NCBI GenBank assembly: GCA_019915135.1
Contig: JAHLMK010000014.1
Span: 1-64,000, forward strand
DNA: 64,000 nucleotides
Direction of reading: 5' to 3'
Origin: Strobilurus pachycystidiatus
Taxonomy: Eukaryota; Basidiomycota; Agaricomycetes; Agaricales; Physalacriaceae
Both the position numbers and the translations under genes were made by a program. Below, in pieces: positions 271 through 55,734 of the stretch. Each line of letters opens with the position of its first letter. Within the stretch, counting starts at the first letter, position 1. The notes beneath the pieces are model-generated. The model had not been told where the DNA came from. It ran no database searches and saw nothing but the letters and a program-made list of their open reading frames with translations.

Positions 271-1908
271 TCACCATCTTAGCTTGTCCATCCAATGCTC
301 CCTCTCAACCACGTTCTCACTGGTCATCTCCGCCTCATTCCCCAGAAGGCTCCCCACCTGTTTTGCCTTAGGCTTCGCCCTCTTCCACACCCTTCTAGGA
401 AATAGGTCTGGCGGTTCATACGTTTCGTACGGTGGCGAAGGCAGAATCACTTTGAATGACACCGTTCTCAGGTTCAGACACCGTTCAAAGAACCTCAGAG
501 CGCATTCTTGCTCATCTAGACCGTCATCTTGCTGATAGTCACGATCAACCGAGAGGATGTCGATGTCGAGCGTGTCAACTGAGGTGTAATGCGTGGCGAG
601 AATATCTGCCACTTCTACCTAGAGAGGACGTTAGTACGATGAAGATTGATTGAGCTCGAGAGAGTGTGCTAACAAATTCTCCAGGGATCTTCTCACCGAA
701 GTAGTGGCGATGGACTATCTGCAAAAACCGGAGAGACATTCCTGCAATCCCGCTCGCTGTTTTCATTTGGGGGATGTCCCAAGTACCACTGAGCCCCAGC
801 GCCTCCAACGACTGACAATTCGAGTAGACCATCGTTCCATTGGAAAGATCAAGCGCACGCAAGCATGCGGGAAAGCAGCTGATGACGTAATACTGCAACG
901 TGAGACACTCGAGCCGGGGAGAGGAAGCTGCAAGGTCAAGCGCCGGGATGGACACACTGCCCAGATAAGATCGGGTAATGAGTTGGAGAGTGGTCACTGC
1001 AGGGAAGCATGAGAGGAGCTTCTGCATGGACGGGTAGGACAGGCTTATGTAGACTGCCAGCCTCGCTACATTCGGGCATACTGGGAATGTGTCCACGTCT
1101 ACGTCGAACTGTGAGTTGAGTTGTAAGTCGACTCCACGCAAGGTTGACGCGCTTCCGTAGATGACCGAGGAGAGTGTAGATGGATGAAGCCAAGCGCCGA
1201 ATGCCAAATTGGTGAGTTGAGGCCACACAATGGACGCGGGCGTTCTAGCAAAGAAGCTGGCGGCGTGTGGCGGTCTACCTTCGTAACATTGGTCTACCTC
1301 AAGCGAGGTGACATTCGGCCAATGCAATGACACAGTCGACATAGCTTGTTGTACGACCATTCGACAGTAGCATGGGGAAGGAGTCTCACCACGCTCGCAG
1401 TCGCAATACGGAATGAAGAATTGAAGGGAGGTGACACCGGTCGCGGAGGACCACCACGACGGCATGGTGAACGATACGCCCTCGGACACGCTGACGATGT
1501 CTGTAAGAAAGATGCGGTGTCGTCGTAGGTGACAACACAGGTCCAAGCGGGTAGCGAAAAGCGCATTGAGGGTCTGTACGCGATTGAATCTGAGGTATGG
1601 CACATCGGCGGGAACAGCTGCAAGGGGATCGAAATACAACAGCGGGATGCCTATGTTCCGCATCCACTTACAGACCTGGACTATGGTCAAATAAGTACGA
1701 GGATGCAGGAAGGAGAATATGTGTATATGGAGTTCCACCGGAAGAAGTTCGAGTGAAATTTTCTCGGCTGAATGAGGGGTCAGAGTCGGAGGGCGGGTGC
1801 TAGATATCTGGTCGGTCAAGACTGTCGATGACCGTTAGAATATGCGCAGTTCACCGTAGGCGTATGTCACTCACGATGCCAAGGGATGCCACTTGCATGC
1901 TCAGTCAT
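271..1908 (-). CDS. F-box/LRR-like protein, copy 1 of a tandem pair
   Basis: Exons (minus strand, 5' to 3') 1875-1908, 674-1821 and 271-618 give 509 aa with frame kept at both introns (53 and 55 bp, the first with a CTAAC branch site). An F-box-like segment lies near residues 30-75 (LELLPVELHIHIFSFL then KWMRNIGIPLLY). It is followed by irregular leucine-rich-repeat-like sequence. F-box proteins usually recruit substrates to SCF ubiquitin ligases; the substrate cannot be told. The tandem neighbour at 2139-4398 has the same exon plan and similar sequence from start to stop. Copy 1 lacks about 209 codons between the start and the F-box that copy 2 has. Start chosen because it is conserved with copy 2 (EHASGIPWH). 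Confidence 0.8.
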
Positions 1909-2138
1909 GACGATTGCGATGGTGAGGGAGAGAGTGGGAGATGACTGTCAAGTGATACTGTTGCTCGGGGTAGGCTACTTTCAAGTTGCTTTTTGAGTTC
2001 AAGAGCCTTCCCAACAAGATTTGATACTCAAAATATGGTGACAGTTGGGGAAACCACTTCTCAATTGATCATGAGGGCCATACGCTTACTTGCAAGTTGT
2101 TTACATTGTACCCCACTGGCACGTCCGTCGCACTTGCC

Positions 2139-4398
2139 CTACAATACCTTATCGAGCTCAGTCCATCCAATGGCCCTTCTCCCATCCGCGCCTCCAATCA
2201 TCTCCACCTCAATCCCAAAACGGCCCTCCCTCACCTTCGTCCACACTCTCCTCGGGAACCGGTCTGGCGGATAACACAGTGGTGGGATCCCATTGAACGA
2301 CACAGTCCTCAGATTTGGACACCGCTCGAAGAACTCTACAGCGCACTCCCGCTGAACCTCATCCAGACCGTCATCTCGCTGGCAGTCCATCCGCCGCGGA
2401 CGCACGGTGAGTGGGCCAACCTCTATGACGAGCGTGTCAACGGAGGGATAGTGCGTTGCGAAGACATCGGCAACTTCGACCTAGACGGGACGTGAGCGTG
2501 ATGACAGTTGAGCTCGAAAGATTACTGACCAGCTCCTCAATGATCTTCAGCTTGAGGAAGTCAATCATTGATGTTACCTGCAAAAACCGGAGAGACCTCC
2601 CAGCAATCCTGCTCGCTGTCTTCAAGTGTGGGATGGACCAACTACCCAGGAGCACGAGGGCCTGCAACGTTTCACAACTTGAAGCGACCTCCGTTCCCAA
2701 GTAGAGACGTAGCGCGCACAATCGTGCTGGAAAGCAGCCCACAACGTAGTGACTCAACGTGAGATACTCGACCCGCGGGGACGAAGCTGCGAGATCAAGC
2801 GGAATGGGCGATTTCTCCTGCCTTCGGTGGGGTATGAGGTGCAGAGAGGTCACAGCAGGGAAGCAGGAGAGGAGCTTTTGCGCGAGCGAGTGAGTAAGCT
2901 GTCCTTGAAATGTCAACTTGGTGACATTGGGGCAGAGTGGGCATATGTCCGTGTATGTGTCGAACTGCGAGCCAATGCTGACTTCACGCAAGGTCGACGT
3001 GCTTCCGTACATCAGTGAGAAGAATACAGACGGACGACGCAGAGCTGCGAACGTCAGATGAGTGAGTCCGTGCCAGACGATGGATGCGGGCAAGTTCTCA
3101 GCGGAGAAGACGGCGTGTAGCGGTCTAGGTTCTGCTTCCCGGTCCACCACAAGCGAAGTAACATTCGGCCAATGCAACGACACAGTTGATAGAGCTTGTT
3201 GTGTGACCTTGAAATGGTGACATGGTGCAGAAGCCTCGCCACGCTCGCATTTGCACGATCCATACATAGATGGACATGTGAATCGGAGGGATGTGACGCT
3301 AGTCGCGGAGGACGACCACGGCGGCATGGTGTACGATGATACGCCCTCGGACACACTGACGATGTCGGTGAGAAAGATGTGGTATCGTCGTAGGTGACGA
3401 CACAGGTCCAAGCGGGTAGTGAAAAAGGCACTGAGGGTCTGTACGCGCTTGGACATAACCTCTAACACCACATCTCCAGCGGCCGCGAGGGGATCGGAAT
3501 ACAACAGTGGGATGCCTACCTGCCGCATCCACTTACAGACCTTGACTTTAGCCAAGAAGGTACGAGGAGGCAGGAAGGAGAAGATGTGCATATGAAGTTC
3601 GAGTGGGAGAAGTTCGAGGGAAAATTTCCCCGCGGGATGGGGAGGCAGAGTCCGAAGGCGGGTGTTAGATGTTGGGGCACGCCATTGGTATGAAAAGATG
3701 CTGTTCTGGTTGCTCAACTGACGCAAGATGATTTTTTCCAAAACCTTGCATCCAAACTGCGGTGGTGGCATCGTGACAGCCTCATCCCTCTTTGAAGCCT
3801 CCTCCAAGACTGCGTACCACAAAACGATGACATTGAAGCACCGTGTCAGGTACGCGTCGAGTGTCGACGAATCTCGCTGGATGCGTCCGTGGACTCCTGT
3901 CCAGAACTCGGAATGAATATTGTCTTCCGCATCATAGTTTCCGCCGCGCGCTACATAATCGAGCCCTTGCGGGCGGAGAATCTCAGTAGTGGTACTCGTG
4001 TAGAGATTGAGAATAATATTGACGTAGAGATAATATCGAAGAGTCGTAGTTGGGAAACGCGAGGCATCGCGATTGTGATCACCAAGCGTCGAGATGAGCG
4101 CGCCGTCGAAGACGCCTACGGCCGCCCATTCCTCTGGTGGTGCGTCGGGTGCGGGGAAAGCTGCGCGCAGACAGGCGGCCGACTCGGCGACTCTGGACGC
4201 GAAGCCTTCTGCGAACTGGGCGAATGACTGCGCGGTGGATGAGGACTTGAGCTGGAGCCCTGAGAGGTCCGACGGAGGCAGCGGGGATGGGTGGGTGATA
4301 TGGTCGGTCAAGACTGTTGATGACAGTGAGAATATGCGCAGTCCGCTGTAGGCGTACCGCTTACAATGCCAAGGTATGCCACTTGCATGCTCAGCCAT
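2139..4398 (-). CDS. F-box/LRR-like protein, copy 2, with extra N-terminal domain
   Basis: Exons 4365-4398, 2530-4313 and 2139-2480 give 719 aa. Introns of 51 and 49 bp sit at the same positions as in copy 1; the first is in frame and stop-free, so it would be read through by a naive translation. Residues about 17-226 have no counterpart in copy 1 and match no family I recognise (mixed helical, one aromatic-rich stretch, no intron). The F-box-like segment follows (LELLPLELHMHIFSFL), then LRR-like sequence and a C-terminal exon conserved with copy 1. Role inferred as an SCF adaptor. The extra domain could be an ancestral part lost from copy 1 or an acquired exon. Confidence 0.78.
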
Positions 4399-5405: not shown

Positions 5406-7348
5406 ATGGACGCTCTACCACTCTCCGATTATTCCTTCTCTTACTCGTATCTCAAATTCCTTGGCCTTCTGGTAGCTTTGCGACTAGGCTATCTGATATG
5501 TTCACGACTGTACTTTCATCCGCTCAGGGCTATTCCTGGACCCCGTCTTGCTGCCATTACAGATTTCTACCAAGGCTACTACGAGCTATGGAAGCATGGA
5601 ATGTTCGTCGAGCATCTGAAGGAGCTGCACGCCATCTATGGTGAGTATTCGACTCAAGTCCATTTCTTCATGCACTCAATCTCTTGAAAAGGCCCCGTTG
5701 TCCGTGTGCGACCCAATGAAGTATGTACATCTTATTTCCTCTACACGTACTTACTCACTCGACTACAGTTACATTTCAACACTGCCGAGGCGTATTTTTC
5801 GATCTATCCACCCATGTCTGGTTTCACGAAAGATCCCACCTTCTACGCCGGTTTCGGGAGTAACGAATCGTCATTTGGGCTTATCGATGTACAAGCCCAT
5901 AAAAGACGCAAGGAGATTCTCAGCCCTCTGTTCTCCAGGCGCGCGATTCTAAAGTTGGAGAGCGCCATCCAAGAGAAGGTCAGAAACATCACGATGAAAG
6001 TCATCACTCAACCTGACAGACTTTGACACAAGGTCGACTTGCTCGTAGAACAGCTCGATACCTACTCAGCCACCGCCCAACCGGCTAACCTCTTCCGGGC
6101 ATTCCGCTCCCTCGCCATGGATGTAGTGACCGCCTATTCCTACTCGCACTCCTTCGGCGGTATCACCACGCCTGGATTCGATCATCCACTTCTACGCGCC
6201 TTGGAAAGTTCCATGGCTCTCATGACCGCGAGCAAGCACTTCCCCGTCCTCCATCTCCTGCAAAACCTTCCGGGATGGCTTGGCGCAATGCTGAATCCCG
6301 ATTTAGGCTGCATTGCGCAAATGCGAGCGCATCTGTCCCAGCAAGTTGATGCTATATTAGCGGATCCAGACACATTGAGGCGTTCGGGCACCGGCCAAGA
6401 GACCATCTATGACCACTTGATCACACCGGATCTCATCAAGTCAACAGAGGTACCGTCGAGGAAGGCTTTGGTCGATGAGGTATGGTCACGAAGCCATATA
6501 GCGGGGTGCGCTCGTTACTGATTCGCATTAGGCGATGCTCCTCCTGGTCGCAGGCACCGATACCGTGAGCAACACCATGACGGTTGGCTTTTATCATCTG
6601 CTCTCGGATGAGAGGATCGCGAAGGAGCTTAGGAGAGAGATTTGGGAAGCTTGGCCAGACAGGGATGAGAAATTCTCGTTTGAGAAGGCGGAGAAGCTTC
6701 CTTACCTGGTCGGTCTGCTGTTCTTCTGCAGTGACAGTGGCGCTAAGCATCACTGTGCAGACCGCTGTCATCAAAGAGTCCCTCCGTCTCAGTACAGGCG
6801 TCCCCATACCGCTTTCGCGCATCGTCCACGCGGACACAATCATTGACGGAGTGGCCGTGCCTTCAGGTGTCAGTCTGGATTCTCACTGGTATACCGGCAC
6901 TCATAATCTGACGACTTCTAGACTATTGTCGCGGTTGCCCAGCCTTTCGTACTCAAAGACCCCGCCATCTTCCACGACCCGGACGCCTTCCAGCCCGAGA
7001 GATGGCTCCAGCGCGACTCTCACAAACTTGAGAAGTATCTTGTTGTCTTTTCCAAAGGACCACGAAGCTGCTTGGGTATGAAGTATGTCGACTTTGTTTG
7101 CGATAGGCATTTGCGGTGACTGATTCGCCTTCAGCATGGCGTGGTGTCAGCTGTACTTGACGTTTTCGCACTTGATACGGAAGTTTGACATGGAGCTCTA
7201 CGACACTAGGTGTGTACTGAACCTTGTATGACCGGCGCTACCATCTCACTTGCCCTCCAGTCGAGAAGATATGGTCTTCCGAGACTTTATGACGCCCGTA
7301 TGGGTTGGGAAGCCTCTCAAAGCGCAGCTGAAAACACGGTCCATTTAG
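5406..7348 (+). CDS. Cytochrome P450 monooxygenase
   Basis: Nine exons (5406-5640, 5692-5720, 5769-5978, 6033-6479, 6532-6708, 6761-6868, 6922-7082, 7135-7209, 7261-7348) give 509 aa, the normal length for a microsomal P450. An N-terminal membrane anchor (about residues 12-32) is followed by a proline-rich hinge (IPGPR). The I-helix motif AGTDT is at about 313-317, ExxR (ESLR) at about 372-375, PERW at about 427-430 and the haem loop FSKGPRSCLG with ligand Cys at about 452. All catalytic landmarks are present. Substrate unknown; the family resembles fungal secondary-metabolism/xenobiotic P450s. The last exon and its downstream sequence are duplicated near 9645. Confidence 0.93.
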
Positions 7349-7797
7349 TGAATAATGATACGCGAAGATTTCATACAACCTCTATCTCATGCACCGATAG
7401 TCAAAGAATGCTGTGAGCTTATTGAAATGACGAACAACAGAACAGTCGCAGATGAGAAGGGCGGGCGTCCAGATCAGAGGTCTCAGGAATATATGGGCCG
7501 TGTAGTAAGATGCCAATCCAAGGGGATATAGAAATACGGTGAATCTGCGCTGTTGGGAGCGCAATGGAGAGGGGCCAGAGGGCGGGTTCATGAGGCGGGG
7601 TCATGACGCCGGCATCTCGGGCCGAGATAGCTCACGCGCCGAAATCGAAATTTGTCGTCGAGCTGGACCTGAGCTGGACACAGCTTGACACAGGCCTGTG
7701 TAGGCCAGCAAAGTCTTCGGGTACACTTCCAAGGCTCGATGCTGCGTGACGCCCAAGAAGGCGCTAATCGCAGCGCCCAACTATATCCCAGCGTCTT
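7272..7797 (+). repeat. Segmental duplication, copy A (P450 last exon plus 3' flank)
   Basis: From within the last P450 exon, through its stop codon and about 450 bp of 3' flank, this sequence recurs at 9645-10103 as a direct repeat with scattered substitutions and indels. The two copies bracket the intronless gene at 7824-9365. Confidence 0.85.
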
Positions 7798-7823
7798 CTA
7801 CCACGTAGCTCGGAACGACACCA

Positions 7824-9365
7824 ATGAATCTCAACGATCCCGGCATCCCGTCGCTCGTCGAGGCCGCGCACTACTACTACGGCCTCCCGTCCGAGCCAGT
7901 CCTCGTTGCGCGTTCCAGCGCTGAGCTTTGGCTCGAGCCCACGGGAGCCGAGGCCTACCTCACCGCGAAGGAGCTCAGGCCTGTCGGTCCCCACGACCTG
8001 GACCGCGTCTGGGAGCCCGTCGTCGCTTCCGCTATCGAGGAGTACCTGGGGAACCAGAAGGTGGCCTGGACGAGCTTGGACCCGGCGCGCATCGGGTACG
8101 CTGGCGGCGAGTCTTTTCCCGTCATCCTCTGGGTTGGAGTCGTCCCTGGCTCTCTCTCGGGCGCGGAGGGTGTCGACATCGCTCTCGGCTGCCGCGCCAT
8201 CTTGACGCGCAACGGCGTCTCTGACGTCCACGTTGAGATTCGTTCGTCGGAGATGACCCTCCAGGCGATGCTATGCAAGCCCGTGCGGACTATCAATCCC
8301 ACCGCCGAGGTCATCGAGCCGTTCGCCACCAGCCTCGGCCTGCCCATCTGCAGCGCCAACACGCCCCACGTGGAGGGCACCGGCGGCTTCTTCTTTACCG
8401 ACAGCAATCACCGCGGCAAGCTCTTCCTCGTCACCGCTCGTCACGTCCTTTTCCATCCCGATCTCACTCCCAACGAGAATCACGCCCCGCGCGTCTTCCT
8501 ATTCGGCGACACCGCCCTCGAGGAGCGCATCGAGGCCATCAAGTCGGAGATTGGTGGCAAGGACATCTTTCTCACGCAGCTCGCGGCGAGGAAGCAGGCG
8601 GTTGAGGGCCAGGACGACGACGAGGCCGAGGAGGAGAGGGCGGAGGTCGAGCACCTGGAGGACAAGGCCAGGAAGGCCAAGACTGCTCTCGACAGGCTTC
8701 TCAGCCAAGTCACTCGCGACTGGGTCTCTCCGGCCGACCGGACCATCGGCCACGTCGTTCTCTCCCCGCCTCTCGCTTTCGGCGTCGGGCCGCATCAGTA
8801 CACCGACGATTGGGCCGTCGTCGAGATCAACCGCTCTTGCGTCGACAAGACCAACTTTGTCGGCAACCACATTGACCTCGGCACCTCCGTCGACGTCGAC
8901 AAGTTCACCTCGTGGATGTCGACCTCGTTCAAGTACCCCGGCAACCGCCTCCTCAAGCTCTCCGGCACCATCCCGGACCAGCAGATGGGCAATCCCGACA
9001 ACAAGATGCTAGACCACCCCGCCATCATGGTGATCAAACGTGGTGGCGCCTCTGGCTTGACGGTCGGACGCCTCAACTCTATCCGTTCCGTCATCCGGTG
9101 CTACTTCCAGGGCAAGCCGCGTCAGTCGTCGAGGGAGGTTGCCGTCTACCCTCGCAGCTCCAAGTCAGGCGCCTTCTCCGAGCCAGGCGATTCGGGGTCT
9201 GTCGTTATCGACGGCATGGGCAGGGTCGCGGGCATCCTCAATGGCGGTGCTGGCGCCACCAAAGTGTCGGACTGCACCTACGTGACCTCTATCAACTTCC
9301 TCATCGAGCGTCTCAAGGCAAGCGGCTACCAGCCCAACATCTTCCCCGTCGCCGAAGATGTCTAA
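7824..9365 (+). CDS. Trypsin-fold serine-protease-like protein, intronless
   Basis: Single-exon 513-aa frame, clearly GC-richer than its neighbours. An N-terminal domain of about 185 residues is unrecognised. It is followed by a chymotrypsin/trypsin-like fold with a plausible triad: His207 in VTARHVLF, Asp328 or Asp329 in YTDDWAVVEI and Ser457 in EPGDSGSVV. The stretch ASGLTVGRLN (about 409-418) precedes the serine. A charged probable coiled coil (about 229-295, rich in Glu, Asp, Lys, Ala) lies between His and Asp, an unusual insertion. No signal peptide, so intracellular action is likely. Such proteins are usually annotated as hypothetical in Agaricomycetes; an immunity or regulated-proteolysis role would be inference. 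Flanked by direct copies of P450-tail sequence. Confidence 0.8.
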   Translation: MNLNDPGIPSLVEAAHYYYGLPSEPVLVARSSAELWLEPTGAEAYLTAKELRPVGPHDLDRVWEPVVASAIEEYLGNQKVAWTSLDPARIGYAGGESFPVILWVGVVPGSLSGAEGVDIALGCRAILTRNGVSDVHVEIRSSEMTLQAMLCKPVRTINPTAEVIEPFATSLGLPICSANTPHVEGTGGFFFTDSNHRGKLFLVTARHVLFHPDLTPNENHAPRVFLFGDTALEERIEAIKSEIGGKDIFLTQLAARKQAVEGQDDDEAEEERAEVEHLEDKARKAKTALDRLLSQVTRDWVSPADRTIGHVVLSPPLAFGVGPHQYTDDWAVVEINRSCVDKTNFVGNHIDLGTSVDVDKFTSWMSTSFKYPGNRLLKLSGTIPDQQMGNPDNKMLDHPAIMVIKRGGASGLTVGRLNSIRSVIRCYFQGKPRQSSREVAVYPRSSKSGAFSEPGDSGSVVIDGMGRVAGILNGGAGATKVSDCTYVTSINFLIERLKASGYQPNIFPVAEDV

Positions 9366-9481
9366 ACGCTGCATATCCTCCTCTCAGTCTCCGTCCGCCG
9401 ATCGTGAAAGGTATCGTACGGAGGATTGCAAGGTATGGACGGCGCCCTTTCAACCCTCGCATAATCTAAAGTAGCTCACAG

Positions 9482-9715
9482 ATGCCACAGAAGGTCACTG
9501 CGTACCACTGGAAAGTCTATGACTTGATAAAGACTATCCCGCGTCGTCGTGTGATGACCGTCTGCCAGGCCATGGGTGGTTCCCCTCGGTCTGGTATATA
9601 TTACGCCGCCGCTAAGTATATTGACGAAGCTCTTATAGTTGTCTTCCGAGACTTCATGACGCCCGTATGTGTTGGGAAGCCTCTCAAAGCGCAGTCGAAA
9701 ACACGGTTCATTTAG
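9482..9715 (+). pseudogene. Chimeric fragment: alkyltransferase-like start fused to P450 tail
   Basis: A 77-codon frame. Residues 1-30 (VTAYHWKVYDLIKTIP then RRRV) look like the beginning of an MGMT/alkyltransferase-like DNA-binding (ATL) protein. The helix-turn-helix part that should follow is only partly recognisable (GGSPRSG). The last 25 or so residues (VVFRDFMTPV... to the stop) are the duplicated C-terminus of the P450 at 7261-7348, in frame. It therefore looks like a truncated ATL gene joined to a P450 tail by segmental duplication. It could be expressed as a short chimera, but the rest of ATL is missing, so I call it a remnant. Confidence 0.45.
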
Positions 9716-10103
9716 TGAATAATGATACGCGAAGATTTCATCTAATCTCCATCTCATGCACCGATTGCCTCAGTGACGAACAACAGAACAATGACAGATG
9801 AGGGGAAGGGCGGGCGTCCAGATCACAGGTCTCAGTACTATGTGCGTCGCGTAGTAAGATGGCATTCAAATGGGATGTACAAGTACGGCGATTCTGCGCT
9901 GTTGGGAGCGTGATGAAGAAGGCGGGTTCATGAGGCGGGGGTGATGAAGCAGGCATATAGCCCCCGCGCCGAAATCGTCGGGCTCGACACAGCTTGACAC
10001 AGGCCAGCGAAGTCTTCGGGTCCAACAATTCCAGTGCCAGGGAAGACTCGATGTTGCGGAACGTCCAAGAAGGCGCTGATCGCAGCCCCAACTATATTCT
10101 AGC
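9645..10103 (+). repeat. Segmental duplication, copy B
   Basis: Direct repeat of 7272-7797 (same order: P450 C-terminus, stop, 3' flank), shortened by several deletions. It ends near 10103, where similarity to the sequence before 7800 stops. Confidence 0.82.
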
Positions 10104-10590: not shown

Positions 10591-11427
10591 ATGACCGTGA
10601 AACAGAACATTCGGATTCGTCCATTTCGCCAAGAAGACCTGAAGGAGGTCCAGGACCTCGTCTTCAATTCTGCAATCCAAGGGGGTAAGTGTCTCTCCCA
10701 GCTTCTCCCTAAGTACCTGTACCTAACTTCTCTCCAGAGGAGTCACCATACCGAGGAACAGTAAAAGCCCTACTCCTTCATCCCATAACCTTCGTCACTT
10801 GCATCGCACTCGTCAGCGATATCCTCCTCCTCGTGCCCAAACACCCTCTCGCTGGTGTAGTTGTCGCCGCCGTGATTGTCGCTCTATACATCCATTTATG
10901 GAGATCGACTACAGCGCCTCTAATGAACTTCATTTCCGAGGCTCTGCAAACGGATCTGGGCGATATCTCAAAATATTATCAGAGCGGGACGGATGGAGAT
11001 GGATGGGCGGGAGAGTTCTGGGTGGCCGAAGTAGAGTCGACGAGTCGTCCGGGTACCTACGAGATTGGTGGGTGCGTTGGCCTGGGTAAGTCCCCTTGAT
11101 ACCTAATAATCCGGAACGCTAAATGCGGTCGCAGAACATTTGCGTGCGGAGACACAGGGCCATATGCGCAGGATGTTCGTGTCGCGCAATCACCGGCAGA
11201 AGGGCATAGCGAAGATGCTGTCGAATACGCTGTTAAACCACGCGAAATCACACGGCCTGACAAGCCTCTATCTGGGAACTACGATGGCGCAGCCAGCGGC
11301 TATGTCTTTCTATGAGAAGACGGGATGGAAAAGGATCCTCAATCCACCGGGTTCACCGTACGCGACCCATCACGGGACATGGATGGTGAAGGTACCGGTG
11401 TTACTCTATACGTTGCAACTCGGATAG
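10591..11427 (+). CDS. Membrane-anchored GNAT N-acetyltransferase, copy 1
   Basis: Exons 10591-10684, 10738-11085 and 11135-11427 give 244 aa. The start (RIRPFRQEDLKEVQDL) is typical of the GNAT N-terminal strand/helix. Two closely spaced hydrophobic segments (about residues 42-85) follow, like the NAT8-type family whose catalytic part faces one side of a membrane. The acetyl-CoA site is the C-terminal RNHRQKGIAKML, fitting the R/Q-x-x-G-x-G/A consensus, and the C-terminal FYEKTGW is typical. Acceptor unknown. A close paralogue with the same intron positions follows at 11765-14062. Confidence 0.85.
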
Positions 11428-11764: not shown

Positions 11765-11959
11765 ATGGACTCCCGCTTGACTATCCGTCCATTCAAGAGC
11801 GAGGACCTCGAAGATGTTCGAAAACTTATTTACGCGTCTTTGATGGAAGGACGTACGCGCTTTCATGTCTACCTCCAACTACGATTCTGACACCTTCCAG
11901 CCGAGTCACCTTATCGAGGCATCCTCAACGCGTATCTGTCTAATCCCATCATGATTCTC

Positions 11960-12692
11960 TATGGGTCACTAAGTGCACTTTTATTCCGATCACCCGCGTA
12001 CCTGCAAGTCACCCGCGTATTCACTCGATGGCACATCTCCTGTCTCCAGCTGGCTCACGGGTGATACATACAATGCTTCTTATATGTCGGTTCATCTTTA
12101 GATTGCTTTGCCCGTCTCACCTATTGCATCTGCACTTGTAAGCTGACACCCCCGCTACCACTGCGCACGCGTACAAGTTCTCTCCGGGCCCGGAGCTGAC
12201 CCTCAATTGATGTCCGACTTCTTGCAATTGCTAAATAGCCTTAGAGACAATGTGGGAATCATGCTAACGGTTCATACTAGTCATAATGTCGGTAATGTGT
12301 GGCGGCCGCACTTGCTGGTGTCAAGGCACGGTCAACCCGGAAGTATCAATTATGCTTGAGCTCGTATCGACTTCTTCGTGGACGTGGTTACTAAACTGTG
12401 GAATCCAAACAAGAAGGTAAGTGCAGTATTAGGCTTGTCCAACTGCCGTGAAGACCCTGCTCTCATGGCGATGTCACTGTGCCACACTTCCAATTCTGCT
12501 CAGTGAGCGGAACATCTATTGTGGAGTCATGCCTTGGATATTTATTCATACATATACAGTAATACTAATTGGCTAGTACTGACTGGCGAGAGAACCGGAG
12601 CACCTTGTGTTTGGCGCGTCGTTCCAGAGCGGCGCGGCATCACCCTGTCAGACGCGGCACGATCGGAATAAATGTGCACTTGGCGACCCATA
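11960..12692 (+). mobile_element. 733-bp TIR element, insertion 1
   Basis: Begins TATGGGTCAC and ends with the imperfect inverted match GGCGACCCATA. The terminal inverted repeats are about 31 bp with about three mismatches. Flanked by the 6-bp direct repeat ATTCTC (11954-11959 and 12693-12698). No long reading frame inside, so a non-autonomous DNA-transposon-like (MITE-class) element. Identical base for base, in inverted orientation, to 12807-13539. Confidence 0.92.
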
Positions 12693-12806
12693 ATTCTCGC
12701 ATACGCAGCATTGGTGGGCGATGCAGTCTTGGTTGCACCCAAGAGCCTCACCGTCGCGTTGACCGTCGCCGGCGCAATCATCGCGCCTTTGGCCTATCAA
12801 TGGCTG

Positions 12807-13539
12807 TATGGGTCGCCAAGTGCACATTTATTCCGATCGTGCCGCGTCTGACAGGGTGATGCCGCGCCGCTCTGGAACGACGCGCCAAACACAAGGTGCT
12901 CCGGTTCTCTCGCCAGTCAGTACTAGCCAATTAGTATTACTGTATATGTATGAATAAATATCCAAGGCATGACTCCACAATAGATGTTCCGCTCACTGAG
13001 CAGAATTGGAAGTGTGGCACAGTGACATCGCCATGAGAGCAGGGTCTTCACGGCAGTTGGACAAGCCTAATACTGCACTTACCTTCTTGTTTGGATTCCA
13101 CAGTTTAGTAACCACGTCCACGAAGAAGTCGATACGAGCTCAAGCATAATTGATACTTCCGGGTTGACCGTGCCTTGACACCAGCAAGTGCGGCCGCCAC
13201 ACATTACCGACATTATGACTAGTATGAACCGTTAGCATGATTCCCACATTGTCTCTAAGGCTATTTAGCAATTGCAAGAAGTCGGACATCAATTGAGGGT
13301 CAGCTCCGGGCCCGGAGAGAACTTGTACGCGTGCGCAGTGGTAGCGGGGGTGTCAGCTTACAAGTGCAGATGCAATAGGTGAGACGGGCAAAGCAATCTA
13401 AAGATGAACCGACATATAAGAAGCATTGTATGTATCACCCGTGAGCCAGCTGGAGACAGGAGATGTGCCATCGAGTGAATACGCGGGTGACTTGCAGGTA
13501 CGCGGGTGATCGGAATAAAAGTGCACTTAGTGACCCATA
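12807..13539 (-). mobile_element. 733-bp TIR element, insertion 2 (inverted)
   Basis: Same element as 11960-12692 in opposite orientation; I compared the two throughout and found no difference. Flanked by a different 6-bp direct repeat, TGGCTG (12801-12806 and 13540-13545), so it is a separate insertion. With the first copy it forms an inverted repeat with 733-bp arms and a 114-bp spacer. Confidence 0.92.
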
Positions 13540-14273
13540 TGGCTGGGCCTCATGGCTGTCATTGCTCAGTTCGTCAAAGAGGGAACGGAAGGCGATCTCC
13601 GAGACGTGGCGAAGCACTATCAGAGCGGGAAAGATGAAACATCAGAGGGGTGGGCAGGCGAGTTTTGGGTCGTAGAGGCCGCCTCGACGCGTAAGCCAGG
13701 CACGACTGAACTCGTCGGCTGTGTTGGGCTTGGTAAGTCGTTCCACGGCGCGTCCTGCAAAGCTCAAAACGCAAATAGAACACCGGGACGCGAAACCCCA
13801 GGGAGAGTTGCGTAGACTATTTGTGTCTTCGCACCATAGACATCGTGGTATCGCGAGTCTGCTATTGCGGACGTTGGTGGAACATGCCAAAGCACAAGGA
13901 TTGTCGAGTCTCCATTTGGGGACGTCGAAAGTCCAGCCAGCTGCAATCACGTTTTACGAAAAGAATGGATGGACAAGACTTCCGATCCCAGCAGGGAGAC
14001 CGACGTACTTCGGTATCGGTGTCGTGAGGGTGGGATTCGTCGTGTATGGCTTGGAACTATGATATCAACGCGTGGCTGGATTGCCATTCCACCCGAGTCT
14101 GACAGCACATGTCCACATTTACGGCTCTTGTGCACATCTGCTTCACTTTCGACTATTGAAATAAAAATGTCCACCAATTGCGACGGCGGCGCATCCATTT
14201 GGGAGAGATACCCTCAAGCACCCATAGAACGTTCAATGTTGCTATATGCGACACAATCAGTTCTTTGCTCTAA

Positions 14274-34338: not shown

Positions 34339-35535
34339 GACACTAGTTGCCAGCGCATGTCGATTGACCTCTTATTCGCACGCAAAGTGGCTTTAGATTT
34401 CGAAATGGAAACAAAACAAGCAAAGCTGAGGGAGACATCAGTGGGCGTCCACGTCGCGTCGGAAGACCCTTGCATTAGGACACGGCGGAGGCGCAAGAGA
34501 TACAGCGAGAATGCTCGAGGCAGGCTCGAGGGGAAGCGGTGGTACTCGGACCGATGGGCCGCACCGTAATGTTTGCCGGATTTGCCGCGCCAAGGCTTGA
34601 ACACGTTCACTCAACTTGTGATAAAATTGGGCCTGTCCTTTGCTTTCTTCTACTCCATTGTCAGCGAACCAGAACAGCACTCAAAGCTTCCTAGTGCTAC
34701 CTTCACAGATCGACCGCGGCTATTATGTCAAACTGGCGCTCTACGTGCCCAGCTCTGAATCGATGCAGGCGAGCGCTTCGGGAACGTTCATTCCTTCTCA
34801 GTCCTCCGAAAGGAGCCCACATACGCAATGCACTGTCACATTCAGTCTCATGCTCAAAAGCGCAGGGCTGAACATGGGTACACTTCAAACGTTGTTACTT
34901 TCATTGATCCCTATGCTTCATGAGTATCTGTGCGCGTCGTCATCCTTGACCACCCGTAGTAGCCTGTGGCGAAGAACTGACGCTGTTCGATCAGACTATC
35001 ATGCTAGTGGCTGGCCTGACAGTGACTCGGATGTCGATGGATTACTCGACTTTTGTTCCTTGGTTGTGCTGTTCCGAAAGTCCTGTTGGAAAACGCTCAT
35101 GCCCTCCCATGTCTCTGCCTGCCGGAAGCCCGAGTAGGCCGACCTCGATTTGAGGGATCAGGGCAAGACTTTCTAGGACTCTTTAATTTTCGACAATGAC
35201 GCGTCAACTCGGAGGCCAAAAATCTATCCCGTTCCTGCTCCTTTCATTCAACCTATGTCACCCGACTCTTTTGAGTCTCTTCTTGACTCATCATTCTGAC
35301 TTTCAGAACTCGACGCACTTGCAAGTCTCCAGTTTGAAAGGCGGCCTTATTGTTCAACAGGTTTTACGTCCAGGATAGAACTTGTGCCTTTATGCACCAC
35401 CTATTTCGCTAACCCGCAGCCGACCCCCCTTGATCAAATCGTCACGGATCAGGGTCATCCCGAGTCTTGCAATGCTCAAAAGGAAATTCTATGGCTTGGT
35501 AAATGTTGCGTACTCGATTCTCCCTGTCCGGCAGT
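34339..35535. other. Intergenic, 1.2 kb
   Basis: Divergent spacer between the CoA-transferase gene and the FAD oxidase pair. A 165-codon plus-strand frame (34640-35137) shows no family similarity, splice support or coding bias that I trust. Confidence 0.4.
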
Positions 35536-37344
35536 ATGGTCAATCTTCTCCTTGCAAGTCTCGCGCTTGCTTCGCTCGTCAAAGGCTTTCCCCACGGATC
35601 TCGCGACGAAGCTGCATCTACGGCATGTACACAGATTCAGTCAGCACTTGGATCCACCCTCGTCCGTTCCTCCGGTATCAAATACCTCTCTGACGCCTCT
35701 GGGGCTTGGAATCTTCTCAACGACGCCCAGCGCCCAAGCTGCATCGTGTACCCCACCACTAGCGCCCACGTCCAAGTAGCTATGAAAGCTATTTACGCAG
35801 CCAAGGCTCCATATGCCGTTCAATCTGGCGGACATAGTGCTATGCAAGGATGGAACAAGTGAGTGACGCGCAATCAATGCCAGATAGAAGACTGATTTGG
35901 CGCCACAGCGTCGAGAGTGGGGTGCTCATACATTTCTCAAAGATGGCGGATGTTTCGTACAATGCCACTTCGGATACCATTACACTGCAGCCCGGCATCA
36001 GGTGGGGAGATGTCTACGAGACTCTGGAGCCTCAAGGTGTTGCGCCTGTGGGTGGGCGTCAAGCGCAAGTCCAATTCGTCTGTGCCTCTTCAACCAGTCG
36101 CTGATCAAGTTTTGATCAAACAGCGATGTGGGCACAGGCTTACTCCTCGGGGGAGGACTGAGCTTCTTGTCTCCGGCCTACGGCTACCCTTCTGACTCTT
36201 ACAAGGAGCTCGATGTGGTGCTTGTCGACGGGTCACTGGTCACTGCGACAGCGACCAACGCGTATTCTGACTTATTCCGTGCGCTGAAGGGCGGCGGGAA
36301 TCGCTTCGGGATTGTTACACGCTACGAAGTCTACGCTGTTCACACTGGCACCAAGAAGGATAAGAACTGGTATGGCGGGAGCATCATAGTAAGCAAAACT
36401 ACCCTTCTTCTTCGAAAATCTTTTCTAATTAGTTGGAAACTAGTACCCCAATACATCGGCTGAAGCGATAGTTAAGGCGACCGCACATTATGTTCGGGAT
36501 GTCACAGATCCCAACGCAAGTAAGCAATTTGTCTCATCTAGGTCTACCAGCGTTCTAACAGTTCTGTGTCATAGTACTCCTTGTCTCCCTCGTCAACGTG
36601 ATGGCGTTGGGGATCATCACGCCCGTAATCCTGGTGAATCTCTTTTACAAGGGTACAAGCCTTCCCGAAAACATCTTCGGCGAATTCTTGTCTATTCCAC
36701 TCCTCTTGAAAACAGTGTCCCAACAAAGCTACTACGAGGTCACGCAGACCCTCCCAGCAGGCAACGAGGGTGGCTCTACACAGCTATTCGGTGCCTCCGC
36801 TTTGGATTCCACCGAGCAGTCGTACCTCGATGCCCTTCGCCACTGGTCGGATTATAGCGTGTCCGTCAGATTCAATGTTGCGATGACTGCGCTGGCATTC
36901 ACACCTGTATTGAATCCTCAAATACAAGCAGGGAAGGCAAGAAACGGGAATGCCATTGACCCTCCTTTGGGTGGCTACGCTGCTGTTCAGCTTGCCACTC
37001 AACTGATCTCAGGAGTGGCATCTGTCCCCTCCTCTGTGGCGACCGCGAGGTCACTTCTCTTCGAGCAGTATGTCATGCCACAATTCTCGATGTCTAGTAA
37101 CGTGTTAACGTGTCATTCGTAGAGTTCCGCGGGCTGCCGGCCAACCTCTGTTCTTGAACGAATGCGACAAGGACCAGAACGTGTTCGAGTCCTACGGAGA
37201 CTATTCGTGGTTGAAGAGTACTTATGCCAAGTACGATCCGACACGGTGAATTCTCTCGTGGCTTGCCCATGAGCAACAATGCTCATTTCTGTCGGTGATT
37301 GCAGCTTCAATGTGCAATACAGTGACGGTCCTGTCGGTCTCTGA
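35536..37344 (+). CDS. FAD-linked oxidase (berberine-bridge-like), copy 1
   Basis: Seven exons (35536-35858, 35909-36064, 36124-36388, 36444-36519, 36575-37067, 37123-37245, 37305-37344) give 491 aa. An N-terminal signal peptide (LLLASLALASLVKG) predicts secretion. PCMH-type FAD domain: CIVYPTTSAHVQ, QSGGHSAMQGWN with His100 the expected covalent FAD attachment residue, and TGLLLGGGLSFLSPAYG. The C-terminal NVQYSDGPVGL closes the family fold. Such enzymes oxidise sugars, alcohols or specialised metabolites with O2. The intron at 36065 uses a GC donor (GCAAGT). Tandem duplicate of 37593-39389 with identical exon lengths. Confidence 0.92.
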
Positions 37345-37592
37345 GATGCGACCAAGTTTCAAGAGCTGGAATGTGCGGACATTAGTCCCCTACGAGTGTG
37401 ACTTGATGGTCTATATAGTACATGTCAATCATTTAATACACACGGACCATCGTCGGACGCAGCTCAGGGAGACCCAAGTGATCCTTACGACACTTGTTGG
37501 GACCGTTCAAGGACCTCTTGAATACTTTGTTCGGCCATGACATGATTTACATCCCTTGACTTTGTATCCGGCGATTCTCCCTGCCCGGCAGT

Positions 37593-39389
37593 ATGGTTAA
37601 CATTTTCCTTGCAACGCTCGCGCTTGCTTCGCTCGTCAAAGGCTTTCCCCACGGATCTCGCGACGAAGCTGCATCTACGGCATGTACACAGATTCAGTCA
37701 GCACTTGGATCCACCCTCGTCCGTTCCTCCGGTATCAAATACCTCTCTGACGCCTCTGGGGCTTGGAATCTCCTCAACGACGCTCAGCGCCCAAGCTGCA
37801 TCGTGTACCCCACCACTAGCGCCCATGTCCAAGTAGCTATGAAAGCTATCTACGCAGCCAAGGCTCCATATGCCGTTCAATCTGGCGGACATAGTGCTAT
37901 GCAAGGATGGAACAAGTGAGTGACGCGCATTCAATGCCAGATAGAAGACCGATTTGGCGCCACAGCGTCGAGAGTGGGGTGCTCATACATTTCTCGAAGA
38001 TGACGGATGTTTCGTACAATGCCACTACGGATACCATAACACTGCAACCCGGCATCAGGTGGGAAGATGCCTACTTGACTCTGGAGCCTCAAGGTGTTGC
38101 GCCTGTGGGTGGGCGTCAAGGGCAAGTTCAGTCCGTCTGTGCTCGTTCAAACTAGTTACTGATCAAGACCAACCAAACAGCGATGTTGGCACAGGCTTAC
38201 TCCTCGGGGGAGGACTGAGCTTCTTGTCTCCGGCCCATGGCTACGCTTGCGATTCCTACAAGGAGCTCGATGTGGTGCTTGTCGATGGGCAACTGGTTAC
38301 TGCGACAGCGACCAACACGTATTCTGACTTATTCCGTGCGCTCAAGGGCGGCGGGAATCGCTTCGGGATTGTCACGCGCTACGAAGTCTACGCTGTTCAC
38401 ACTGGCACAAATAAGGATAAGAACTGGTATGGCGGGACCATCATAGTAAGCAAAACTACCCTTCATCCTCGATGGTGTGTTGATAAGTTGAGAATAGTAC
38501 CCCAATACCTCGGCTGAAGCGATAGTCAAGGCGACCGCACATTATGTCCGGGATGTTACAGATCCCAACGCAAGTAAGCAATCCGTCCAATTCAAGTCTA
38601 CCGGTGCTTGTCCTAACAGTTTTGTCATAGCCCTACTAGTATCCCTCGTCAATGTTATGGCCTTGGGACTCATCACGCCCGTCATCCTTGTGAATCCCTT
38701 TTACAAGGGTACAAGCCTTCCTGAAGACATCTTCGGCGAATTCTTGTCTATTCCACTCTCCTCGAAAACCTTGTCTCAACAAAGCTACTACGAGGTCACC
38801 CAGACCCTCCCAGCAGGCAACGAGAGTGGCTCTACACAGCTGTTTGGTGCCTCCGCTTTGGACTCCACCGAGCAGTCGTATCTCGATGCCCTTCGACACT
38901 GGTCAGATTACAGCGTGTCCGTCAGATTCAATGTCGCCATGACTGTGCTGGCATTCACGCCTGTCTTAAATCCTCAGATACAAGCAGGGAAGGCGAGGCA
39001 CGGGAATGCAATTGATCCTCCATTGGGTGGCTACGCTGCTGTACAGCTTGCCACTCAACTGACTTCGGGAGTGGCGTCTGTCCCCTCCTCTGTGGCAACT
39101 GCGAGGTCACTTCTCTTCGAGCAGTATGTCATGCTACAATTCTCGACGTCTAGTAACGTCATTTGCAGAGTTCCGCGGTCTGCCGGTCAACCTCTGTTCC
39201 TGAACGAATGCGACAAAGATCAAAACGTGTTCAAGTCCTACGGAGACTATTCGTGGTTGAAGAGTACTTATGCTAAGTACGATCCGAAACGGTGAGTTTT
39301 TTTGTGGTTGCCCGTGAACAACAATGTTCATTGCTGTCTGTCATTGCAGCTTCAATGTGCAATACAGTGACGGTCCTGTGGGTCTCTGA
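37593..39389 (+). CDS. FAD-linked oxidase (berberine-bridge-like), copy 2
   Basis: Exons 37593-37915, 37966-38121, 38181-38445, 38498-38573, 38631-39123, 39169-39291 and 39350-39389 give 491 aa. Every exon has the same length as in copy 1 (323, 156, 265, 76, 493, 123, 40 nt) and the first exon is nearly identical at the nucleotide level, so this is a recent tandem duplication. Same signal peptide, same His100, same GC-AG intron (donor at 38122). Differences lie mostly in exons 3 and 5. Both copies appear functional. Confidence 0.92.
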
Positions 39390-40615
39390 GACGCGACCAA
39401 GACTCAGGAGTGAATGCATCGTATGTAGGACCCAAATGATCCCTACGATGCTTGTCGTTACCGTTCATGGATCTCTTGTATACTTCGTCAAGCTTGATAT
39501 CCCCAAGTCGTGTCTCAAACTTCTATGTGGTCGCCATTCCTCTCGGACCCGCCTTTCAAGGACTTCTGCTTGGCTGTGGCTGTAGGGACCTCACTGACGA
39601 CACTTGATAGTACCCCGATCGCTCAACTGAACCACGGGCAGGACGTGGCATACGCATCTAGGAGGGTTGCTAGTATTTCACTCTTCCAGTTCTCTAGTCG
39701 CTCACTTTGGGAACCCACCGGCTATTTGAGCCATATCTTGCACTGATGCTGTTTCGATTCGCATATACATTGCTGAGTTGATGGAAGCGTCATTCAAACT
39801 TGAAGCATGGCTGATGCAAACAACGTTGCACCTAGGCCGTAGACGGGGATCAAAAACTCAAAGAGATCAACCCAATTGCGTCCCATGAAGGCTGTCGGCA
39901 TAGTACACATTCGCGACTTGGGCTTCCACGGTCATGGTGACGACTGTGTGATTGAGCGTAATGCCATCGACAGTAACTGCGTTTCAGGACACTCATAGTG
40001 AGGGGATTGTATAAGTGATTCTCTATCAGCTACTATCTGTACGAATTGCGCCACACGCTTACAAGCAATTCATAACGCTTCTTCCGCGTCGATATTTTCA
40101 CAGGGACGGAGAGTTGTTTCATCTAGCCTTTGTTTTGATGACCTTGGCCTTCTTGCCGCAATCACACTACAACTACTACAAGGTCTAAGTAGGTCTTGAC
40201 AAGGCCGCTGCTCGGAAAAAGCAGCAAAGGTCCTGAAAAGGAAAGTATGCGATGTGGTGATCAGATATGATGTAATTTCAAATTGTATTGATGAGGAGTG
40301 TGTGCGTGAGCGTCACTTGCTCTCGACATCCAAAAGCAAGGCAAATTCACTCTCCTGGCTGCGATCGGTGACAACGAGGGACATTGTGAAAGGATGTAAC
40401 TCCGGCGGCTCTAGAGTCTAGACTCAGGCCTTTGACCGCTCTTGTCTTTCAGCTAATCAAACTTGGAATGTACAGCGTGGCTCCACCTGTGGAGATTGCT
40501 TTAACCGGACGGTCTGCTTGAGCCTATAAAGCAAGTGGAGACTGCTACCCAGAATCAAAAGCCCATCACCTACCAGTCCCCACACTATCTGCCTCGAGAC
40601 TTCTTCATTGAAACC
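39390..40615 (+). promoter_or_regulatory. Intergenic with TATA box of the next F-box gene
   Basis: 1.2 kb. CTATAAAGC at about 40524-40532 is a good TATA box some 85 bp before the ATG at 40616. The first kilobase holds nothing I can support. Confidence 0.45.
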
Positions 40616-52998: not shown

Positions 52999-53498
52999 CG
53001 GCAAAGTGTTCCTCATTCTGTAACTTATAATATATGACTACTGTAGTGTCCAAGATTATAAAGGTACAGTGAATCAGTGTAGTGTCTGATCGTATCAACC
53101 GATTTTCTGACGTTCCGCGCGCGCCAATACTGCAGTCTTTGGAGCTCAATATTCTCATCTGAGAGTTCTTAACCGTAAGTATGAGCAGAGCACTGGCAAA
53201 ATATGATATTAGGCGAGCCCTGTGATACAGCGAACTGTCTTCGCTACTACATAACCTTTCGCAAGCCTATTCCAAAGTGGTTACAGAAACCGTTCATCGT
53301 TCATGACCTTATTTTTGAGAATGTATGACAACCTGATAGTGATACCATGTGGCGTGAGATGTTGCTGTATCGTGTTGTATGGACTTTACAGAACGCGCCA
53401 CTTTACCGTGATTGGAGATAATCCGTGAATAATCAATATCCATGAGCCGTCGTGTTGGTGAGTAGTAGTACAGCTTGAAAGAGTCTCCCCACTTCTCT
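52999..53498. other. Convergent 3' region
   Basis: 500 bp between convergent genes, AT-richer than the surrounding coding sequence. No supported gene. Confidence 0.4.
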
Positions 53499-55306
53499 CT
53501 AGATCCACAAGTTGTGTACGCGACTGTTCGGGACGAGAGTCCATAGGAGCATCATAAACACCATCATTGCTACAAGTCTGAACACGAGGTTAGTCGATAT
53601 CGACCGGTTAACGGAAGAGAGTTCACGAACAATGGCTGTAGACTAGATATGCCTACTGTGTTTGCCAGCGCGCCGGTGATGAACGGGAACAATGCGCTGC
53701 CAGCCTGCCCAAATCCTGCTATCCAGCCAATGGACCCGATGAGAGTCCAAGGCGGCAAGATGCGACTGGTGTGGTTCATGACTATAGGATACATAGGTCC
53801 AAGTAGGGCGCCGATAATCGATATGGCGACGCCATCTCCTATGAGGGATGGTACATACCAGACGACGAACTCCAGCCTAAAGCATCCGATGATTCCGGGG
53901 CATCTTGCTTTGGGTGCGGGAAACTCACCCGATTGCGATGATGGTGTATAGGAACAGGATTCTTCGCTCTCCCATCTTTCAGAAGGCTCAGCTGACGAAA
54001 CGCTTGGCGAGGTCTGTTTACCTTCTTGTTAGCCCATATCAAAGCAGCTCGACCAACGGTGAGACCTTCAAGGACCGTAGGACCTCCGAGAGATAGAGCA
54101 AAGAAGGTATAACTTACCACCAAAGAACCCAGACGAGATGTATCCAGAAGACTGTCCGCCATGCCGCTTTTGGATAATGTAGGTCACCATCCATCCTACG
54201 TGTCCAATGTGAGCTTTGGCCTCTCGAGTCGTCTTCCTTTCTTACCGCCAATCGTAACTTCGACACCAACATACACCAAGATGAACACCGCGAGAAGATG
54301 GATGGTCTTGTGGCCAAGGATCTTCCTGAACTCGCTATGTTCACTCGTCCCCTTCTCTCCCTCTTGCTGACCAATTTCTGCCAAGCATTCTGACAATGGA
54401 CCGTCAACGGCATGTATCAATATCGAGAAGCTTCAATACGTACGGTCTTGAGTTTTCAGCCTGAACACAGCCGCCAAGAATATGACATTTACGAGAGCAA
54501 TCCCAAGCGATATGAGATAGTGAAACGACCATCGATTCATATACGCAAATTGCGTAGCAGATAGTGGAGAACACAAGGCGCCAACACCTTTTGCGACGTA
54601 GGCATCAATACACACCGATATGAACACGTACCATAAACGGCATGCAGCAAGCTCATCTTAGCCTCCGAATTGTTCTCCAGACCGGCCACGTATCCGTTGG
54701 ATTGCGCATCCTACCCGTCGCACAGCCAATCAATCATTGGAAGTTGGACCCGGGCTCAGGTCCTTACTGACCTGAAGAGCCATTCCCACACCGTTGATCG
54801 TGTACGCAATGACGAATGCAGGAAACGGAGGACTCCGACACCCGCTTGAATAGCGTACGCGACCACCTGGCAGACCGCTCCTAGAACAAGTATCTTCCCA
54901 AAGCCAAGCTTCGGAGACAGTGGGATGTTGATGATCGCGCCAGATATGAATCCCTATCGATCCATGTAAGTTTGATTTTACGAGTAGATGAGAGATAAGC
55001 AGACGGTACGTACCACACAAGCGAGCACAAAGATGAGAGACACGACAGTGTAGTTGACCTACAAGAGTGAGTGTACGGCTGCCACACTGGCGTAGACGCA
55101 CTGACATTATACACGGTCTCCATCCTTGGTAACATCGGCCCAGCAGATGCGTCATTCCACCCAGCCATGAACATGCTCCAGTTCAGAGCAGCCAACTGCA
55201 CGTACTCGCGCCGTGTCTTGCTACCTTTCCTGTCCAAGTCTCCTGCCAGAGTTTCGTGATACTGATCCATGATCTCAGACTTCGTGTTATCTATGGCGGT
55301 GGCCAT
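53499..55306 (-). pseudogene. MFS transporter, copy 1, frameshifted
   Basis: Tandem duplicate of 55735-57542 with the same exon order and splice sites, start at 55306 (MATAIDNTKSEI) and stop at 53499-53501. In the third exon, near 54833-54838, six bases stand where copy 2 has one. The net +5 bp shifts the frame after YAIQAG. Downstream exons (SPLSATQFAY, YVGVEVTIGG, SLIGDGVAISIIG, WIAGFGQAGSALFPFITG) remain well conserved, so the lesion is recent or the gene is rescued by a splice I cannot see. Product, if intact, would be a 12-span permease. Confidence 0.75.
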
Positions 55307-55734
55307 TGTTATGGAGGCGATGTGTAAGGAAACAGTGTCCTCATCCGACACATAGACCTCAAGTGCTTATATGGCCGAAACCTTCTCGGAGGCGCTAAGT
55401 GTGAACTCATACTAACGTTTGTGGCACGCAGAAGACGTCGGGTCCAGATGACACGTATGAATGGGAGAAAGACGATGTGAGGAAAGCTAAGTTTCAACCA
55501 CGCGCTGATGAAGATGGGAAGAACCTCGGAAAATATGACTCCTGCTCATGGATGTGCTCATTGCTCAGCCCAGCGCTCAGAAGGCGCTCAACGTTCGATG
55601 GCAGGCAGTCTTCAGGTCCTCCAACGCCCCATCCAGATTCACTTTCTTCTTCAACTGATCTGGATGAGCCATCAGCAGATAACAGAACGAAGTAACTATG
55701 CAAAGCCTCCCCGCCAGACTTCCCTCTACATCCG

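Follow-up and report, generated by a model that had tools for sequence, protein, structure and literature searches.

We analysed a window of 64,000 nucleotides of Strobilurus pachycystidiatus DNA, which forms the start of contig C14 (JAHLMK010000014.1) in an assembly of 51.8 Mb and 61 contigs (GCA_019915135.1). This window contains two paralogous genes of the GNAT type. The upstream paralogue, at 10.5-11.4 kb, has a PF00583 match (2.8e-13) in the frame 11110-11424, and its uninterrupted frame at 10713..11096 (+ strand) was used as a yardstick for its neighbour. The neighbour, which appears to have introns and whose PF00583 (GNAT) match (6e-13) lies in the frame 13676-14059, carries two insertions, both located within a single exon that they split in codon phase. 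Three pieces of this exon are found on the + strand: 11891..11959 (with an arbitrary start, as the start of the exon is not fixed), which is open up to the first insertion; 12699..12806, which corresponds to the 36 codons lying between the insertions; and 13546..13734. All three are open, follow one continuing codon phase, and correspond one after another, when aligned, to residues 8-25, 32-63, and 68-125 in the exon of the paralogue (10713-11096). The alignment score of each piece was reached by none of 500 shuffles, with a narrow margin for the middle piece (score of 56 versus a shuffle maximum of 50).

The inserted sequences are two elements of 733 bp each: element 1 at 11960..12692 (+ strand) and element 2, the same sequence inverted, at 12807..13539 (- strand). 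Their arms are 100% complementary over 733 nt (733/733) and are separated by a spacer of 114 nt. Element 1 is flanked by two copies of the target duplication ATTCTC (11954..11959 and 12693..12698), and element 2 by two copies of TGGCTG (12801..12806 and 13540..13545). Both elements end in terminal inverted repeats (TIRs) of 32 bp, 29 of the 32 positions being alike. For element 1, the left TIR (11960..11991, + strand) starts with TATGGGTCACTAAGTG, and the right one (12661..12692) reads TATGGGTCGCCAAGTG... on the - strand; those of element 2 are located at 12807..12838 (+ strand) and 13508..13539 (- strand). When the window was searched with a 32-nt TIR pattern derived from these very ends (up to 3 mismatches), exactly four matches were obtained, namely the four twin ends, against a mean of 0.00 in 100 shuffles. 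The first-pass annotation of this DNA had described such a twin pair, interrupting a GNAT gene that can be aligned with its neighbour, and both descriptions are borne out, the pair to the base in its arms, TIRs, and duplications, and the gene through the phase and ordered alignment of its exon pieces.

Coding capacity was checked for element 1 alone, in which the longest stop-free run is 70 codons; this element is non-autonomous and must thus be moved by a transposase supplied from elsewhere. Stops at 12062 and 12849 end the frames that enter element 1 and element 2, respectively, so that loss of the full GNAT protein is predicted if the elements are neither removed nor spliced out.

Other repeats in the window correspond to local duplicated stretches, at 35515-39410, 53491-57503, 716-3609, 7274-9922, and 32811-33911/47791-48888; these comprise direct repeats that share 74-96% identity and lie about 2 kb from each other, as well as one inverted pair with 70-82% identity at a distance of about 14-16 kb.

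Relatives in the assembly and classification

Relatives were sought by BLAST with the whole element and by end-pattern searches, so that copy counts are lower bounds. At least six further two-ended relatives were found, which together with the twins make eight copies, in two subfamilies, distributed among six contigs. The closest among those found (C7:2534260-2535031) shows a BLAST identity of 88% with the twins, and 683 of 731 ungapped columns are shared with element 1. The second subfamily comprises C19:875800-876525, C16:93123-93849, C7:825455-826174 (hereafter C7a), C3:2974274-2975007, and C4:2095134-2095274, the last of which lacks an interior; its four long members are 70-74% alike to element 1 (ungapped columns). 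Two-ended copies are 720-772 bp long, except for the C4 copy of 141 bp. All 16 of their ends begin with TATGGGTC, and their TIRs are 32 bp long with 27-30 of 32 positions alike. Exact 6-bp duplications, all different from one another, flank seven of the eight copies. The eighth, the C19 copy, carries five extra bases ahead of its AACTTA repeat, which is hence offset by 5 bases and does not form an exact duplication.

These copies bear on several earlier claims. Exact element boundaries, a 6-bp duplication rule, and two separate insertion events had been put forward from the twins alone, on the understanding that the genome would hold other copies and that their flank duplications would be consistent. 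Six further two-ended copies do exist, and with seven of the eight duplications exact, the genome copies uphold the boundaries, the 6-bp rule, and the two events.

Three single ends, each lacking a partner, were also detected. One lies at C20:510285. At C13:608318, a 52-bp left remnant is followed by one base and then by a repeat of the flanking GACGCA, an arrangement that a one-sided deletion or a failed excision might leave. The third, at C10:1063904, belongs to a further relative: it reads TATGGGTATCTATTTGCACATTTATTCCGATC and, with the next two bases, is 29/34 like element 1. The sequence adjoining it is unlike the twins and no right end lies within 1 kb, and it may mark where a larger element, perhaps a coding one, terminates.

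Regarding classification, the rust-fungal IS3EU elements that carry TET genes are described, in excerpts of the report, as having 6-bp target site duplications (TSDs), TIRs longer than 30 bp, and TAYGG..CCRTA ends (Kojima 2025, PMC12730594). According to excerpts of another study (PMC10045372), TA..TA ends are a constant feature of complete IS3EU families and 6-bp TSDs a usual one, and 17 of the 45 Repbase IS3EU families are autonomous; non-autonomous IS3EU families are thus already known as a kind. The twin family shows 6-bp TSDs, TAYGG..CCRTA-type termini, and TIRs longer than 30 bp. No IS3-like DDE integrase-core transposase lies inside the element, and none is required of an element that is non-autonomous. 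Its TSD length would also fit hAT6; its termini fit published IS3EU elements. Being shorter than about 1 kb and non-coding (as checked for element 1), with TIRs, TSDs, and dispersed copies, the twins also have the features of a MITE. We conclude that they are likely to represent a non-autonomous family of the known superfamily IS3EU that has moved lately. This family looks new, its kind being already known, and no description of it was found in the titles and abstract openings of the literature on non-autonomous IS3EU elements or basidiomycete 6-bp MITEs. The earlier suggestion of a possibly undescribed family therefore stands at the family level, as far as those titles and abstract openings go; at the superfamily level, termini and TSD fit a described group, IS3EU, which is one of the two it had named as candidates (the other being Dada).

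Candidate mobilising machinery

The integrase-core domain PF24764 (rva_4), which we take to cover IS3EU/GingerRoot transposases, has 34 matches in the genome, grouped by hand into 18 loci. Both ends could be fixed at three of these loci; four loci belong to a separate lineage described below, five were inspected without their ends being fixed, and six lie outside the end analysis. The three elements with fixed ends have TATGGGAG ends and are located at C14:1019648-1063673 (span of 44 kb), C14:1066972-1080284 (- strand, 13 kb), and C10:675371-765026 (- strand, 90 kb). A fourth TATGGGAG-ended element, of 2.8 kb, at C14:1063766-1066570, has no rva_4 match inside. Exact 6-bp duplications flank all four (TGATTC, GAAAGG, TATACG, and, for the fourth, CCTTTT), rva_4 matches being present in three of the four spans, and the TATGGGAG end pattern has eight matches in the genome against none for a reversed-pattern control. 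The combination of these ends, 6-bp duplications, and an integrase-core gene argues for IS3EU-type machinery residing in this genome, with rva_4 as presumably the IS3EU transposase.

The 44- and 90-kb spans might be taken for giant IS3EU elements, a reading that we rejected. A sampled 2.5-kb interior piece of the C10 span proved to be a high-copy repeat with four copies inside the span, so nested insertion explains its size at least partly. The short TATGGGAG-ended element at C14:1063766-1066570 sits between two inverted near-identical rva_4 elements and contains a repeat, 813 bp or longer, that is present at no fewer than 37 other places with 97-99% identity and looks like an LTR.

The right TIR of the rva_4 elements and the TIR of the twins share their first six bases (TATGGG) and then 14 of 26 positions, which is the best among eight end comparisons (range 9 to 14 of 26). 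As for chance, a score of 14 is attained by 259 of 100,000 26-mers drawn at random from the window, which makes about 1% over four ends. A shared-core pattern of both kinds of TIR has 31 matches, against 9 in the control. Twenty-five of these 31, including all 16 perfect matches, are ends of these two groups or the C10:1063904 end, and the six remaining matches carry 3 mismatches; as the pattern was derived from these very ends, perfect matches are expected and do not constitute an independent test. The resemblance between the TIRs suggests common descent. It is too distant to show that rva_4 elements mobilise the twins. The two groups thus have in common their first six bases, a 6-bp TSD, a partial in-register likeness of TIRs, and an inverted near-identical neighbour pair, but about half of the other TIR positions differ, the rva_4 elements span 13-90 kb versus 733 bp for the twins, and they may not be the actual mobiliser.

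A larger relative with the same ends and a transposase gene, which the first-pass annotation had proposed to look for, was sought throughout the assembly, and neither whole-element BLAST, nor a 19-base end pattern, nor the shared-core pattern revealed a transposase-bearing element with the twins' own TIR. The 19-base pattern (up to 3 mismatches) has 38 matches versus 35 in a reversed control, its weak matches being at chance level. When the sequence rightward of four further rva_4 genes and of C11 was read, the best likeness was 15/32 to the twins' TIR and 18/32 to the rva_4 TIR, both in C11. The second rva_4 lineage (C3, C9, C1, and C26) starts with TATGAGGG instead of TAYGG; for its four loci the left end was read in place in three and the right end was not found. 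The fourth, the rva_4 element at C1:446827-450857, has its left tip 33 kb off, at C1:483520-483557, and is apparently split by a large insertion. Elsewhere on this contig, at C1:5062884-5097384, two rva_4 loci and the repeats beside them reappear with a uniform offset of 19,318 bp, suggestive of a tandemly duplicated segment of about 19 kb.

Two other gene families were considered. The alpha-kinase, a partner gene of TET-bearing IS3EU elements, has 13 matches in the genome, none of which lies inside the three rva_4 spans. DUF6589 (PF20231), with 71 matches over about 30 loci, many with internal stops, was a guess for an IS3EU transposase that the end scan did not support: among 46 loci, 30 of them DUF6589 loci of 2.8-4.5 kb, a TAYGG..CCRTA pair with a 6-bp TSD was present in only three, all of them known short elements, in a scan that longer elements would have escaped. 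DUF6589 has the appearance of a gene family in many copies that may be carried by transposons.

Origin of the inverted pair

On the whole, we consider it quite probable that the twins are non-autonomous elements with TATGGG..CCCATA ends, moved in trans by an IS3EU-type transposase, and that one of them arose from the other through a short local hop. In such a process, the transposase would bind the TIRs, cut at the TATGGG/CCCATA tips, and join the element to target DNA with a 6-bp stagger, the gap being filled by host repair to leave the 6-bp duplication. The donor copy would have survived, via either repair or a copying route, and the GNAT gene would have lost its full protein from the first stop in element 1 onwards.

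Four lines of evidence make local re-transposition the best reading. The first is the identity of the twins: if substitution rates of 1e-8 or 1e-9 per site per year are assumed, 0 differences in 733 bp place the age of the pair below about 0.2 or about 2 million years, respectively (95% bound). Secondly, C7a and the C3 copy, which is 14 bases longer, are identical at 720 of 720 aligned positions; the two differ in contig, flanks, and TSD, and recent mobility is thus common to the wider group. As these two copies are on different contigs, local hopping is not the rule. Thirdly, the two C14 rva_4 elements are inverted relative to each other, with right ends 3.3 kb apart and different duplications, and show 100% identity over 3674 bp (a rounded figure; by bit score, perhaps two differences), a picture that resembles that of the twins. 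Finally, there is a precedent in Styx, an IS3EU-like element of Zymoseptoria: the excerpted report gives 8 of 18 new same-chromosome insertions at 150 kb or less from the parental copy, mentions tandem-inverted copies, and traces one donor, on another chromosome than the new copy, that was retained (PMC10853768). The authors interpret this retention, in the same excerpts, as the outcome of movement that is not replicative, copy number being increased through repair (PMC10853768). No literature on IS3EU was found under the term 'local transposition', and the Styx report, as excerpted, describes such a pattern in other words. That one twin is a recent local re-transposition of the other, as the first-pass annotation had proposed, is therefore likely, judging from sequence comparison.

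Alternatively, the pair could be older and have been homogenised by gene conversion, in which case the second insertion need be neither recent nor derived from the first. Close inverted repeats are a setting in which gene conversion is easy, the arms are inverted and only 114 bp apart, and no copy found beyond the twins is closer to element 1 than 683/731. We nevertheless deem this unlikely, as the interrupted exon pieces are still open and in phase, as expected of a young disruption, and as the C7a and C3 copies reached identity on different contigs with unlike flanks, so that identity is accounted for without invoking conversion between neighbours.

Attributing the twins to another superfamily with 6-bp duplications (hAT6 or Dada-like), their TATGGG likeness to IS3EU being coincidental, seems clearly improbable. 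Dada elements are known for targeting one gene; the TSDs of the eight copies differ. The lack of a coding partner with the twins' TIR in the assembly fits such an attribution, as does the existence of hAT6 elements with 6-bp TSDs in excerpts of the rust-fungal study (PMC12730594); against it, the twins agree with the published rust-fungal IS3EU elements in the five terminal bases and in the lengths of TIR and TSD, and TATGGG-ended elements that carry a transposase and are flanked by 6-bp TSDs occur in this genome.

Another reading is that the elements supply splice sites and serve as newly gained introns, with no damage to the GNAT protein, in the manner of introners (elements creating introns by insertion into genes), which an excerpted survey reports in 5% of the species searched (PMC9860276). 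We hold this to be very improbable, since by eye the TATGGGTC..GACCCATA ends and 6-bp TSDs give no GT..AG pair at the boundaries, an element plus one duplication is 739 bp, which is not a multiple of three, and the entering frames meet the stops given above. Finally, that an assembler duplicated a single element in inverted orientation is extremely improbable: perfect 733-bp inverted repeats are hard for short reads, but an element copied by mistake should carry its flanks along, and here each element has its own 6-bp duplication and is bordered on either side by gene pieces that differ and continue one gene in phase.

Hairpin potential and comparison with known systems

A transcript running across both elements is predicted to form a stem of 733 perfect pairs. 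Its inner 221 nt fold at -152 kcal/mol, versus a mean of -75.6 for 200 shuffles, none of which is as low; this low energy is due to the inverted repeat itself. The Piwi domain (PF02171) has 21 matches in the genome. In maize, according to the excerpted account (PMC3440606), MuDR is silenced by Mu killer, an inverted duplication for which transcription from a flanking gene has been proposed. Speculatively, and with little probability in our estimation, IS3EU elements might spread by short, inverted, donor-retaining hops, any hop into a transcribed gene producing a perfect hairpin; read-through from the GNAT gene would then yield a 733-bp stem feeding RNAi against the family, a counterpart of Mu killer made by transposition itself, and the inverted pair could also move as a composite unit.

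Taken by itself, the finding otherwise belongs to ordinary transposon biology. It provides a base-exact case of a lately mobile non-autonomous family with IS3EU ends and, beside Styx, a further example of neighbouring copies in inverted orientation. If local, donor-retaining movement were general, it would bear on the choice between cut-and-paste with repair and a copying route for eukaryotic IS3-like elements, and close inverted pairs would be ready-made sources of hairpins.

Among known systems, excerpts of the Styx report (PMC10853768) show the likenesses of a 6-bp TSD, a similar TIR length (36 bp in Styx), clustered re-insertion, a retained donor, tandem-inverted copies, and solo TIRs; Styx is about 7.9 kb long and coding, which sets it apart from the short non-coding twins with their spacer of 114 bp. 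The rust-fungal TET-bearing IS3EU elements, in the excerpts available (PMC12730594), share with the twins TAYGG..CCRTA ends, TIRs longer than 30 bp, and 6-bp duplications, but code for a transposase, TET/JBP, and alpha-kinase, whereas the twins are 733 bp long and carry no transposase. The non-autonomous IS3EU families implied by the Repbase counts, as excerpted (PMC10045372), are by description of the same kind as the twins, with IS3EU ends and no complete transposase.
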